This document shows positions 10,531-60,673 of a DNA stretch of 64,000 nt, piece after piece. Position 1 is the first letter of the stretch. Every line of letters starts with the position of its first letter. The translations under genes and the position numbers were made by a program. The notes under the pieces were generated by a model. That model was not told the origin of the DNA and made no database searches. It saw only the letters and a program-made list of their open reading frames with translations. Origin of the DNA: Chryseobacterium paludis (GTDB lineage Bacteria > Bacteroidota > Bacteroidia > Flavobacteriales > Weeksellaceae); contig NZ_CP099966.1 in NCBI RefSeq assembly GCF_025403485.1, positions 2,914,001 to 2,978,000 on the forward strand. The letters are read 5' to 3'.

Positions 10531-10565
10531 TCATTGTACGTTATTATGTAAACATAGTACAATGA
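10531..10565. repeat. Inverted repeat enclosing the Ku start codon
   Basis: TCATTGTAC (10531-10539) and GTACAATGA (10557-10565) are perfect 9-bp inverted repeats with a 17-base spacer. The right arm contains the Ku ATG (10562-10564). It could be an operator, or in RNA a hairpin hiding the start codon. Confidence 0.5.
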
Positions 10566-11347
10566 AAGCAATTTGGAATGGTGCCATTGGCTTTGGTTTA
10601 GTCAATATCCCTGTAAAGATTTATTCCGCAACCGAAACAAGTAAGTTGGATCTGGATATGCTTGATAAATCTGATTTTTCAAATATCAAGTTTAAAAGAG
10701 TCAATGAAAAATCAGGTAAAGAAGTGAAATGGGAAAACATCGTAAAAGCTTATCTCATGGATGACAGATACATTGTTCTTGACGATAAAGATTACGAAGC
10801 AGCAAGTCCCGAAAAGAGTAAGATACTTTCTATTGATCAGTTCGTAAAAGAAGTGGAAGTAGACAGCGTTTATTTTGAAAATCCTTATTTTTTGGAACCT
10901 CAGAAAAACGGAGAAAACGCTTACCGCCTTCTAATGAAAGCTTTAACAGAAACTAAAATGGTCGGTATAGGAACTTTTGTTCTTCGTGAAAGTGAGGCTA
11001 TCGGAATGATTCGACCCTATAATGAAGAGGTTTTAATTCTTAACAGATTACGCTTTAATCAGGAAATAAGAGATTATAAAGACTTAAAGATTCCACCTAA
11101 GAAAGCTCCAAAACCTGCGGAATTAAAAATGGCAGTAAGTCTTATTGAACAACTTTCCCAGGAGTTTGATCCTACTGTGTATAAGGATACCTATTCAGAA
11201 GCATTAATGAAAATCATCAAACAGAAAGCGAAGGGTAAGAGTGTAAAAGCCCAAAAGGCAGAGCCGACAAAAGAAGGTAAAGTCATTGACTTAATGGCAC
11301 AATTGAAAGCCAGTTTACAAAGTTCTAAATCCAAAAATGCATCGTAA
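10562..11347 (+). CDS. ku: Ku protein for non-homologous end joining
   Basis: Bacterial Ku homodimers encircle DNA ends at double-strand breaks and recruit LigD. The 261-residue protein has the single Ku core (MKAIWNGAIGFGLVNIPVKIYSATE, then VKWENIVKAYLMDDRYIVLDD and VDSVYFENPYFLEPQKNGENAY) and a short lysine-rich C-terminal tail of the kind that binds DNA and LigD. Length is typical. The stop codon TAA overlaps the next ATG by one base (TAATG), so translation of the LigD phosphoesterase part is likely coupled. The start codon lies within an inverted repeat. Confidence 0.95.
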   Translation: MKAIWNGAIGFGLVNIPVKIYSATETSKLDLDMLDKSDFSNIKFKRVNEKSGKEVKWENIVKAYLMDDRYIVLDDKDYEAASPEKSKILSIDQFVKEVEVDSVYFENPYFLEPQKNGENAYRLLMKALTETKMVGIGTFVLRESEAIGMIRPYNEEVLILNRLRFNQEIRDYKDLKIPPKKAPKPAELKMAVSLIEQLSQEFDPTVYKDTYSEALMKIIKQKAKGKSVKAQKAEPTKEGKVIDLMAQLKASLQSSKSKNAS

Positions 11348-11949
11348 TGGCTCTTAAAGATTATAACGAAAAACGGAAATTCAACGAAACCAGTGAACCA
11401 AAAGGGAAAACTAAGAAGAGTAAGGATCAACTTATTTTTGTAGTTCAGAGACATGCGGCATCACATCTCCATTATGATTTTCGATTAGAGATGGAAGGTG
11501 TCCTTAAAAGCTGGGCCGTTCCAAAGGGTCCATCATTAGACCCTAAAGATAAACGTCTTGCCATGATGGTGGAAGATCATCCATACGATTATAAAGATTT
11601 TGAAGGGAATATTCCTGAAGGCAACTATGGAGCCGGCCAGGTTGAGGTTTGGGACAGTGGCACTTACGAACCACTGGAAGAAAACAACAAGCTTTCCGAT
11701 GAGAAAGAACTGTTAAAGGAATTACACGCCGGATCATTAAAATTTATTCTCCACGGTAAAAAATTGAAAGGTGAATTTGCTTTGGTTAAAATGAAAAACA
11801 CTGAAGGCAATTCCTGGTTGCTCATAAAACACAAAGATGAATATGCAGAAACAAATTATGATGCTGAAGAAAACACTTCTGCAAAATCTTTAGTCACCCA
11901 ATTTTTAGAGGAAAAAAAAAGCCTAAAAAGCAGCAGAAAGAAATCATAA
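11347..11949 (+). CDS. ligD: LigD 3'-phosphoesterase domain, separate frame
   Basis: This 200-codon frame encodes the 3'-phosphoesterase domain of DNA ligase D, which removes 3'-phosphates and ribonucleotides during end joining. Family hallmarks are FVVQRHAASHLHYDFRLEMEGVLKSWAVPKGPS and EGNYGAGQVEVWDSGTYE. In most Bacteroidota it is the N-terminal part of one PE-ligase-polymerase protein. Here the frame ends shortly after nine A at 11912-11920. One extra A, or a -1 shift there, continues as KPKKQQKEIITTQPRFRNFN and then reads without a stop into the ligase frame. This is therefore probably the first half of a frameshifted ligD. Confidence 0.9.
   Translation: MALKDYNEKRKFNETSEPKGKTKKSKDQLIFVVQRHAASHLHYDFRLEMEGVLKSWAVPKGPSLDPKDKRLAMMVEDHPYDYKDFEGNIPEGNYGAGQVEVWDSGTYEPLEENNKLSDEKELLKELHAGSLKFILHGKKLKGEFALVKMKNTEGNSWLLIKHKDEYAETNYDAEENTSAKSLVTQFLEEKKSLKSSRKKS
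11911..11921 (+). promoter_or_regulatory. Nine-A slip site joining the two LigD frames
   Basis: Codons GAG GAA AAA AAA AGC contain nine A in a row (11912-11920). A -1 ribosomal slip or insertion of one A by RNA polymerase would fuse the phosphoesterase frame to the ligase-polymerase frame with no stop between. No clear stimulatory hairpin follows. Confidence 0.55.
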
Positions 11950-12020
11950 CGACTCAGCCAAGATTCAGAAACTTTAATGCTCTAACCAACGAAAAAAAAC
12001 TTAAAAATTTCATCAGGCCA

Positions 12021-13904
12021 ATGCTTGCAAAGTCCTTTGAAAAAGCGTTTGATGATAAAGATTGGATCTTCGAGATAAAATGGGATGGCTATAGGGCTAT
12101 TGCTGATGTTAGTAATGATACGCCTCTGTTTTATTCCAGAAATGGCATTTCTTTCCTGGATAAATTTCAAAAGATTTCAAGAGATTTCGATTCGCAAAAA
12201 CATAAGATGATTCTGGACGGAGAAATTGTAGCTTATGACGAAAACGGAAAGCCCAGCTTCCAGTTGCTACAACAGATCGGAGATAATCCTAACCTTGCTT
12301 TGGTTTACCAAGTTTTTGACCTTCTCTGGCTCAATGGTCATTCTACAGAAGATATCCCATTATTGCAAAGAAAGGAACTTTTAAAAGAGGCCTTGATTGA
12401 GACTGAAGTTATTAAATATTGCGACCACATTCCCGAAAAAGGAATTGACTTTTTCAATCAGATGAAAAAAATGAAGCTTGAGGGGATGATCGCAAAGAAA
12501 GCAAACAGCAACTATATTGAAAACCATAGAACCACGGATTGGCTCAAAATAAAATTTACGGATACTGAAGAAGCCATTATCTGTGGATTTACGGAACCGA
12601 GGGGCTCAAGAAAAGGATTTGGAGCATTGATCTTAGGAAAATATAGTAATGGGAAATTGATTTATTCCGGTCATACAGGAACAGGATTTAATAAAGAATC
12701 TTTAAACCAGCTTCATGAGAGATTGAAAAAATTAATTATAAAGAAATCTCCATTTGAAACTGTTCCTAAAACCAATATGCCTGTAACATGGATAAAGCCC
12801 GAATTGGTTTGTGAAATTAAATTTTCAGAAATTACAAAAGATGGTATTTTCCGGCATCCCGTTTTTATTGCAATCCGTGAGGATAAAGATCCCGAAGAAA
12901 TAAAAGGTTCGACAAATACCAATATCCAAACTAACGAAAAACCTAAAGAAATGAAAGCTACAACCTCTTCTCCCAAAAAAGCGCCACATTCTGAAAAGGA
13001 AATAACGTTAAACCGACATTCTGTAAAGTTGACCAATCAGGATAAAATCTATTTTCCAAAAGATGGTATTACAAAAGGGAATGTTATTGAATATTATCAA
13101 TCGGTAGCTGAATATATACTTCCGCATTTAAAGAACCGTCCACTTTCCTTAAACCGCTTTCCAAATGGAATTGAAGCCCAGGGTTTTTATCAAAAAGATG
13201 CCAGTGATAATATACCTGATTGGATAAAAACCACTCAAGTTTATTCAGAGTCCAATGATAAGTACATTGATTATATTTACTGTAATGATAAAGCCACCTT
13301 AGCCTATCTTAATAATTTAGGCTGTATCGATCTCAATCCATGGAACAGTTCGCTTCCTGATCTGGAACATCCAGATTATTTGGTTTTGGATCTTGACCCT
13401 TCTAAGAAAAATAGTTTCGATGATGTGATTGAGGCGGCATTACAGGTGAATGAAGTTTTAAATTCAATTAAAATTAAAGGCTACTGTAAAACTTCCGGAA
13501 GTACCGGAATTCATATCTACATTCCAATGGGTGGTAAATACGATTTTGACCAGGTGAAAGACTTCGCTCATATCGTGATGAAACAAGTTAATGAAAAGCT
13601 ACCTAAAACAACTACATTAGAAAGAAACTTACAAAAAAGAGATGATAAGAAAATTTATCTCGATTATCTTCAAAACAGAACAGGTCAGACATTGGCGAGT
13701 GCCTACAGCTTAAGGCCTAAGGAAGGAGCTTCTGTTTCTATGCCTTTAGAATGGGATGAGGTAAAGCCAGGATTAAAACCAACAGATTTTACTATTCATA
13801 ATGCTTTAGAAAGAATTAAAGAAAAAGGAGATTTATTTAAATCTGTATTGGGAAAAGGAATTGATATGATGAAAGCATTGGAGTTGTTACAGAATCTTAA
13901 GTAA
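12021..13904 (+). CDS. ligD: LigD ATP-dependent ligase and polymerase domains
   Basis: This frame encodes the remaining LigD domains. The ATP-dependent ligase comes first, with the adenylated lysine at about residue 20 in FEIKWDGYRA and SRNGISFLDKF, LDGEIVAYDENGKPSF and EGMIAKKANS; its OB fold follows. A linker at about 300-330 leads to the primase-type polymerase (PDYLVLDLDPSKK, TSGSTGIHIYIPMG, KRDDKKIYLDYLQNRTGQT). The frame is open upstream of ATG 12021 as far as the nine-A run and reads like linker (ALTNEKKLKNFIRP then MLAK). The whole fused protein would be about 850 residues, the family norm. Whether ATG 12021 is used is unknown. Confidence 0.92.
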   Translation: MLAKSFEKAFDDKDWIFEIKWDGYRAIADVSNDTPLFYSRNGISFLDKFQKISRDFDSQKHKMILDGEIVAYDENGKPSFQLLQQIGDNPNLALVYQVFDLLWLNGHSTEDIPLLQRKELLKEALIETEVIKYCDHIPEKGIDFFNQMKKMKLEGMIAKKANSNYIENHRTTDWLKIKFTDTEEAIICGFTEPRGSRKGFGALILGKYSNGKLIYSGHTGTGFNKESLNQLHERLKKLIIKKSPFETVPKTNMPVTWIKPELVCEIKFSEITKDGIFRHPVFIAIREDKDPEEIKGSTNTNIQTNEKPKEMKATTSSPKKAPHSEKEITLNRHSVKLTNQDKIYFPKDGITKGNVIEYYQSVAEYILPHLKNRPLSLNRFPNGIEAQGFYQKDASDNIPDWIKTTQVYSESNDKYIDYIYCNDKATLAYLNNLGCIDLNPWNSSLPDLEHPDYLVLDLDPSKKNSFDDVIEAALQVNEVLNSIKIKGYCKTSGSTGIHIYIPMGGKYDFDQVKDFAHIVMKQVNEKLPKTTTLERNLQKRDDKKIYLDYLQNRTGQTLASAYSLRPKEGASVSMPLEWDEVKPGLKPTDFTIHNALERIKEKGDLFKSVLGKGIDMMKALELLQNLK

Positions 13905-14853: not shown

Positions 14854-15220
14854 CTTTGTATTTATTTAATTTTTGATATTTTACCCGTTTATTTACTCTC
14901 ATTTTGTAATTAATTTTGAAAAATAACCTGCATCCAAAAAACAACAAACTCTAAACCTTTGGTTTAAAGTACATATTATAGTAAAAAAATAAATTGGATA
15001 GCAAAATAGCCCTGTTTCAGGCTTAATCAATGATCATTTTTGAAATTGAATCTTGTAAAAAGAAGTAATTAGAATTTTAAAAATACTGAAAAAAAAAGTA
15101 ATCCACAATTTCTATGAAGTCTGCCTTTTGGAAAACCTATAAGCACAAAAACAACAAATAAATCTATTTATTCTATTTCATGAAAATAAATTATCAAAAA
15201 TAAAAATTAAATGAAAAAAA
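14854..15220. other. Intergenic stretch, nothing recognised
   Basis: 367 bases between mscS and the dehydrogenase gene, very A+T-rich. It has no open frame longer than a few codons, no strong hairpin apart from a small TAAACC-TTT-GGTTTA at about 14953-14967, and no clear promoter. It should contain the mscS promoter. Confidence 0.5.
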
Positions 15221-22895: not shown

Positions 22896-23095
22896 GGAAA
22901 TAATAGCATTTCTTTATTTTTTTGAACCAAATTTCATTAAATTAAAATTCAATCATTTTTTCACATCACTATTTAATGTAATTCAAAATTTTTCTCCCCG
23001 TTTTATATGCTCTGCGGAAAATTATCAATAAAAAAAAATTAAACAAAAGAATTGAATCTTAATAATTATGATTCTTTTTAATCTTAAATTGATAC

Positions 23096-59692: not shown

Positions 59693-60673
59693 ATGAAGAT
59701 TTGTGTAATTAGTTATGATTTTTGGGGTTATGATAAACATATTGTAGAAACATTATGCAAAAAAGGTATTGATGCACATCATATCAAAATTGCTAATGTT
59801 ACCCATTCTAATTTTCAAGAAAGAGCAACTAATGCAATTAGCAAGGTTTTCTTAAATAAAAATCTAAAAACAGAAAAAAGACAACAGTTTGTTTTAAATT
59901 CATTAGCGAAAATAGGTCATCAGGATCAAATATTAGTTTTAAACCCTGATGCTTTTGATACGTCTACTTTAGAAGAAATTAAAACCTATAGCAAACGACT
60001 GATCACCTATCTCTATGATAGTCTTGAAAGATTTCCTGTAGAAGATGAAAAGCTGGCTCTTTTTGATAAAGTTTTTTCGTTTGATATTACTGATATCGAA
60101 AAGCATGGATTCGAAAAGCTGACTAATTATATTTATCTGGATCATCTTTCCAATAAGAGTCAAAATCCTCAGATGGATCTTTTTTATATTACCTCATATG
60201 ATAATAAAAGGGTCTCATACATTAAATTACTAGCTAAAAAATTAATTGCGCTGAACTTAAAATTTCAAATAATGATTATTGGAAAGAAAAGTTGGAAAAA
60301 TCAGCTAAAAAACTTATTTATCACTGTCCCAGAAAACCTTTCCGTTATATTTAGCATCAAAAAAATCTGTCACAAAGATCTTCCTAGTTATTACAAAAAC
60401 TCGAAAGCTTTACTAGATCTAACTCGAGAGAATCAACACGGTTTAAGTTTTAGAGTTTTTGAAGCAATGGCTCTTGAAAAAAAAATTATTACAGATAACA
60501 GTATTATCAAAGATTATGACTTCTATAACCCTAATAATATATTGGTTTTAGACGAAACTTGCAGTAATTTAACCAAGTCTTTTTTTGACCAGCCTTATCA
60601 AAAAATTCCCGATGAGATTTATAATTATTATATGTTAGACAAATGGGTAGATCGGGTTTTTAGACTATCTTAA
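59693..60673 (+). CDS. Glycosyltransferase-like protein (CgeB-type), copy 1
   Basis: A 326-residue soluble protein resembling the CgeB / GT-B-like glycan proteins. Recognisable parts are YLYDSLERFPVEDEKLALFDKVFSFDITDIEKHGF and the C-terminal sugar-nucleotide region LDLTRENQHGLSFRVFEAMALEKKIITDNS with IKDYDFYNPNNILVLD. It is a paralog of the gene at 61684-62631, which carries the same motifs in the same order. Donor and acceptor are unknown. It lies 4 bases after the GT2 gene. Confidence 0.78.
   Translation: MKICVISYDFWGYDKHIVETLCKKGIDAHHIKIANVTHSNFQERATNAISKVFLNKNLKTEKRQQFVLNSLAKIGHQDQILVLNPDAFDTSTLEEIKTYSKRLITYLYDSLERFPVEDEKLALFDKVFSFDITDIEKHGFEKLTNYIYLDHLSNKSQNPQMDLFYITSYDNKRVSYIKLLAKKLIALNLKFQIMIIGKKSWKNQLKNLFITVPENLSVIFSIKKICHKDLPSYYKNSKALLDLTRENQHGLSFRVFEAMALEKKIITDNSIIKDYDFYNPNNILVLDETCSNLTKSFFDQPYQKIPDEIYNYYMLDKWVDRVFRLS

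Follow-up and report, generated by a model that had tools for sequence, protein, structure and literature searches.

A conserved run of nine adenines at the frame break of ligD in Chryseobacterium: a probable site of programmed transcriptional slippage

How is a complete LigD obtained from a gene whose domains lie in two different reading frames? The question arises in Chryseobacterium paludis (assembly GCF_025403485.1), in a window (the whole stretch of DNA analyzed) of 64,000 nucleotides (nt) covering positions 2,914,001 to 2,978,000 of contig NZ_CP099966.1, in a single-contig genome of 5.05 Mb; positions below count from the first letter of the window, and Ku and the parts of ligD lie on the forward (+) strand. 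The open reading frame (ORF) of the LigD 3'-phosphoesterase (PE) occupies 11347..11949, encodes 200 amino acids (aa), matches TIGR02777 (E 1.5e-67) and PF13298 and can be aligned to the solved PE structures 2lj6 and 5dmp. As a first-pass annotation of this DNA had described, and as the sequence confirmed, the PE frame stops at 11949, yet from a run of nine A (A9) at 11912..11920, preceded by GAGG and followed by GCC, the -1 frame (AAG CCT AAA AAG ...) runs on without a stop until it joins the frame of the ligase. The run is read in the codon phase G-AA AAA AAA A-GC. The 29 nt between the run and the end of the PE stop (11921..11949) encode the C-terminal end of the short product in frame 0 and, in the -1 frame, part of the linker. 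This linker, KPKKQQKEIITTQ...FIRP, spans 11919..12020 and leads to the ligase and primase-polymerase domains at 12021..13904, which comprise 627 codons from an internal Met of the PMLA motif (TIGR02779, TIGR02778 and TIGR02776; PF01068, PF04679 and PF21686). The joined chain would have about 852 residues, in agreement with the 850 or so estimated earlier, and TIGR02777, TIGR02779 and TIGR02778, all above their cut-offs, follow each other in the normal PE-ligase-polymerase order, although spread over two ORFs. Naturally fused LigD proteins of Chryseobacterium measure 844, 849 and 852 residues (loci L027, L038 and L010). By eye, the PE carries HxxxxxHxDxR and the ligase KWDG, which we take to be the characteristic motifs of these domains; their activities are predicted.

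The reading best supported by the sequences is a slip site that would supply both free phosphoesterase and full LigD, as had been suggested by the first-pass annotation. We consider it probable that ligD is a programmed recoding gene and that the recoding takes place through slippage of RNA polymerase on the A run. In the genomic frame the gene would give the 200-aa phosphoesterase, ending about 10 codons past A9. In part of the transcripts the polymerase would slip on A9, and those with a net gain of one A (or of four, or with a loss of two) would be translated in the -1 frame into the PE-ligase-polymerase LigD of about 852 residues. A single gene would in this way provide the PE alone as well as full-length LigD, in proportions that depend on the run.

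Homopolymers are error-prone, and a sequencing or assembly indel had been named as the plain alternative. We defined Chryseobacterium-type loci by identities above 79% for the PE and above 70% for the ligase. Counting duplicates, 106 of 111 rows (110 loci and the window) share the A9, its codon phase and the -1 position of the ligase. Once identical stretches were dropped, 109 distinct loci remained: 100 split with A9, two split with A10, three fused with A10, two fused with A9, in which the frame is joined through other changes downstream, and two with A8 and the ligase in the third frame. The split state is kept, then, in 102 of these 109. The two A8 loci may themselves be sequencing errors (L180; L238, from an assembly just 75% complete). 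The relatives place the window in Chryseobacterium, and the same nine A occur in the sole other genome of the species (L082) and in Chryseobacterium sp. ISL-6 (L001; possibly the same genome), the closest named locus. Among relatives of the PE in the protein database, the 120 listed as best all measure 200-204 aa, in a set whose length limit shuts out fused proteins. The alignment of relatives revealed conservation of both the split and the A run, and not a group of single-frame genes devoid of the run. With the same run and offset in 100 distinct relatives, which by their contig titles stem from many sequencing projects, an indel is refuted and retains practically no probability; judged from these comparisons, the split is real and no sequencing error.

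The picture was similar at the level of genomes. A PE match was found in 145 of the 173 genomes of the genus that were searched and, counting by the open frame of the best match in each genome, the PE frame has a length of 201-257 aa in 137 of the 145 and of 845-864 aa in seven, with the last genome (G016) outside the count. Among the 137 are A10-type copies, as well as three genomes (G063, G123 and G128) that have a stop within the PE match and belong to the third-frame arrangement. Such constancy bears on the proposal that the run is prone to on/off mutation, that is, a contingency locus at which replication slippage toggles LigD between cells. Homopolymers do mutate fast, and fused forms with A10 and A11 exist in related species. 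However, 102 of the 109 distinct loci are split, 100 of them with exactly A9, and the same-species genome agrees. We therefore rejected the contingency locus, for which the almost constant run length across species leaves a very slight chance, and on/off mutation finds no support here.

Is the -1 frame beyond the run translated? Between the run and the ligase Met it is free of stops in all of 97 loci that were picked for carrying A9 (at offset 565), and each other frame is stopped in all 97. From the PE stop to the internal ATG, three classes of linker, which differ in length by multiples of three, have ratios of nonsynonymous to synonymous differences (pN/pS) of 0.36, 0.18 and 0.18 in the -1 frame, as against 1.0-2.0 in the other two frames. 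The linker is thus under purifying selection in the -1 frame and would therefore be translated within the PE-ligase chain, from which we conclude, on the pattern of substitutions, that the full joined LigD is made. A plain fission of the gene, with PE and ligase-polymerase as separate proteins and the second starting at ATG 12021, has in its favor that this ATG is present in 101 of 102 loci, that the 200-aa PE is entered in databases as a separate protein and that true fissions with an own start, by eye, occur in more distant Bacteroidota (L199, L206, L210 and L212). Yet ATG 12021 encodes the Met of PMLA, a motif of the ligase; the DNA from the PE stop to this ATG (72-84 nt in 102 loci) shows the selection and the steps of three just described, and A9 would lack a reason to persist. 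The ligase frame of 83 of these 102 loci lacks any ATG, GTG or TTG between the run and the internal ATG. Fission was rejected on account of the selection on the linker, and we regard it as very unlikely.

The run itself is conserved as DNA. Codons 188-191, GAG GAA AAA AAA, are identical in the 97 loci, while none of 17 conserved Lys and none of 12 conserved Glu comparison columns elsewhere in the PE domain is invariant, and the mean share of G-ending codons in such columns is 17% for Lys and 13% for Glu. On a quick DNA tree the run codons underwent no A-G changes, against medians of 10 in 18 Lys columns and 9 in 14 Glu columns. The remaining 12 of the 109 loci are set apart by the length of the run, an upstream indel or changes past the run, and none of them has the run broken by a synonymous G. 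In the A10/A11 type (32 loci) the three AAA codons also show no changes; as the medians there are only 2.5 and some other columns show none either, this set says little. Taken together, these columns argue that the run is held as DNA, past what the protein needs.

The mere presence of A9 is a different matter. We resampled synonymous codons of the Lys-rich linkers in 217 of 228 distinct loci, having removed those in the third frame, with stops in the joined frame, without a run or with an unfitting length. A run of nine or more A was expected in 0.22 to 0.69 of cases depending on the group, and in 73.5 of 107 loci of Chryseobacterium type. Selection for A9 in the fused LigD of distant genomes was considered and dropped because the counts lie near this expectation, with no clear excess where the ligase is 43-50% identical (nine seen, 7.1 expected of 13) or, paralogues included, less than 43% identical (eight seen, 5.4 expected of 24). 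Since Lys-rich linkers of AT-rich genes often hold A9, its presence alone is not rare, and what is improbable is its invariance, its exact length and its tie to the frame change.

The same shift could take place on the ribosome. In -1 programmed ribosomal frameshifting, tandem tRNA-Lys would slip on A_AAA_AAA along a uniform mRNA. The heptamer is present in the right phase, the -1 direction is the one needed by 139 of 142 non-fused loci with a junction run, and a Shine-Dalgarno-like (SD-like) GAGG precedes the run in 97 of 97 loci. In E. coli dnaX, where a -1 ribosomal frameshift on a slippery A run also gives two products from one gene, there are a stem-loop and a spaced SD sequence, the latter about 10 nt from the slip site, and neither element was seen at ligD. 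The GAGG (11908..11911) abuts the run, far nearer than the dnaX spacing, and is missing in the A10 type. Single-sequence folding of four stretches revealed no stimulatory structure (z +0.05 to +1.71; downstream +0.59), and RNAalifold on 36 sequences gave 0 pairs and no conserved structure, pseudoknots lying outside the model. Moreover, the run has stayed at nine or ten A although seven would do, and the GAA of the run is never GAG in the 97 loci. Heptamers without stimulators are weak in E. coli, reaching at most 10 times a background of 0.055% (PMC4066793). We favor transcriptional slippage because no conserved RNA structure was found and because nine A are kept where seven serve a ribosomal heptamer, and consider ribosomal frameshifting unlikely, though a serious contender. 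Everything other than slippage by the polymerase or the ribosome is improbable even when taken jointly.

Several observations weigh against slippage of the polymerase as the explanation. A_AAA_AAA can be used as a ribosomal slip heptamer in each configuration, so that conservation of the run would in itself fit the ribosome as well. Of the 142 non-fused loci with a junction run of 8-10 A, 139 are in the -1 offset and three, with A8 or A9, in the third frame (L180, L237 and L238), a strong one-way bias that also fits -1 ribosomal shifting; a polymerase that lost one A would bring the third frame into use. Polymerase slippage does not explain why GAGG is invariant. In the 23-32 nt between the run and the end of the PE stop in the 97 loci, neither frame stands out, with the corresponding rate ratio (dN/dS) at 0.28-0.45 in the -1 frame and 0.44-0.49 in frame 0; these values lend no support to selection on the C-terminal end of the short product. 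Fused relatives exceed the synonymous-codon null modestly in A9 (25 seen, 16.6 expected of 37), and a tree-aware pair test of split state against run length had too few informative pairs. Sequence alone is unable to separate slippage of the polymerase from that of the ribosome, nor does it fix the amount of full LigD. We infer that the slippage is transcriptional, and likewise its efficiency and a use of the short product.

The GAGG is an observation in its own right. No parsimony changes were counted at the third base of its GAG; it is invariant in the 97 loci while other Glu codons vary, only L120 deviates among all 109, and this invariance is not accounted for by run length.

Recoding by poly-A slippage is known, and the closest parallels to ligD come from such genes. 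Thermus thermophilus dnaX (PMC1088944, PMC5009743) resembles ligD in its A9 on the sense strand, a shorter and a longer product from one gene and a nearby stop in the other frame. Slippage was measured there, with 50% of the short product (PMC1088944), and the genomic frame encodes the long product, whereas ligD is known from sequence alone and its genomic frame encodes the short one. In Citrobacter rodentium tssM1 (PMC4256274) the genomic-frame stop lies 28 nt past the A run (29 nt to the end of the stop in ligD), an added A is needed for the long form and, in the excerpts of that paper, no nearby structure or SD sequence is reported, much as no structure or spaced SD sequence was seen at ligD. 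Its A11 run gives transcripts with 10-15 A and 20-25% frameshifting, and both forms are needed; transcripts of up to 15 A from A11 indicate that extra A is a natural direction of slippage. The reversed polarity of Yersinia pseudotuberculosis tssM3 (PMC4256274) can be counted as a further likeness. The tssM sites are called uncommon among tssM genes (PMC4256274), in contrast to the ligD site, which is kept across the genus and beyond, in a DNA repair enzyme. What appears to be new is a site in ligD and its broad conservation.

When loci of the Chryseobacterium type and others are taken together, every one of the 139 distinct loci in which the ligase lies at -1 and is at least 50% identical has a junction run of 9 or 10 A, never a shorter one; they fall into 11 combinations of run length, phase and position. 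A PE match was present in 108 of 197 sampled genomes of the same family and in 59 of 395 in the phylum sample. A genus designated g9 is mostly split; its A10 run, at offset 582, has a different phase (AGT AAA AAA AAA A), and its two fused loci (L155 and L159) have A11. Genus g26 is mostly fused with a few split loci. Split loci are likewise found in a further family of the class (L182 and L197) and in Edaphocola (L069). On a quick FastTree protein tree of 184 rows, 69 of whose 181 inner branches are weak, split and fused states were exchanged at least 19 times, at least 13 of them forced by well-supported branches, and several exchanges go with a change of one A in run length, from A9 to A10 (L010 and L038) or from A10 to A11 (L155 and L159). 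According to a review, where shifting is near 50% one nucleotide can flip which product needs the shift (PMC5009743), which resembles the swapping of split and fused states on the LigD tree. In a raw table of 180 rows that ignores relatedness, the run is absent in 12 of 42 fused loci and in none of 138 split ones. The split counts exclude ten distant loci with no junction A run and another frame or two genes (L199, L206, L207 and L209-L215); three further loci have a PE without ligase in the stretch examined (L192, L193 and L208).

It is conceivable, though we hold the idea tentatively and at somewhat less than even chances, that selection favors a defined ratio between the free 3'-phosphoesterase and full LigD and that slippage acts as a built-in dosage control of non-homologous end joining (NHEJ) in Bacteroidota. 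On this view the run and its offset would have persisted throughout a genus and been rebuilt at different positions, phases and lengths, while the slipped and unslipped products would have exchanged roles many times. In a large genus, recoding appears to be the sole route to the Ku-linked NHEJ ligase, whose first part is entered in databases separately, as a 'DNA polymerase ligase N-terminal domain-containing protein' or a '3'-phosphoesterase'. If true, this would be a case of poly-A slippage that is widely conserved and serves a cellular repair gene; it would raise the question of what the free LigD phosphoesterase does and would offer, in A9 split, A10 split, A10 fused and A11 fused genes, a natural series of run length against product ratio. 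In the open literature, subscription papers being outside our scope, we found nothing joining LigD with transcriptional slippage, ribosomal frameshifting or a frameshift in Chryseobacterium, and 'ligD' is absent from the main text, as available, of the GeneTack survey (PMC3711429; supplements outside the search).

Directly upstream of ligD, the Ku gene (10562..11347; TIGR02772, E 2.3e-87; PF02735) has its stop overlapping the LigD start as TAATG. The window LigD and the Pseudomonas-type LigD have the same domains in the same order and adjoin Ku, but the Pseudomonas gene is a single open frame and the one described here lies in two.

Other copies of LigD deserve mention. In some other Bacteroidota (L199 and L206, and also L210 and L212), the split LigD has a ligase with its own overlapping ATG, by eye, and no junction A run. 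Several genomes carry a second, fused LigD paralogue (mostly 898-953 aa) beside the other copy (L272-L282, L284 and L285), with A9 in the linker in two of these 13 loci. LigD of g9 type was found in ten genomes of the genus Chryseobacterium (L177, L178 and L230-L237), with PE identities of 68-71% and A9, A10 or A11 runs, a distribution that suggests gene transfer. A Chryseobacterium-like LigD (PE 76-78%) with A9 in the same phase is present in Edaphocola aurantiacus (L069) and in a genome of a different family (L182), possibly by gene transfer. Within the window, a further A9 lies at 60477-60485, inside an ORF (59693-60673) that is glycosyltransferase-like by eye, and two more, at 15089-15097 and 23030-23038, fall between listed ORFs.

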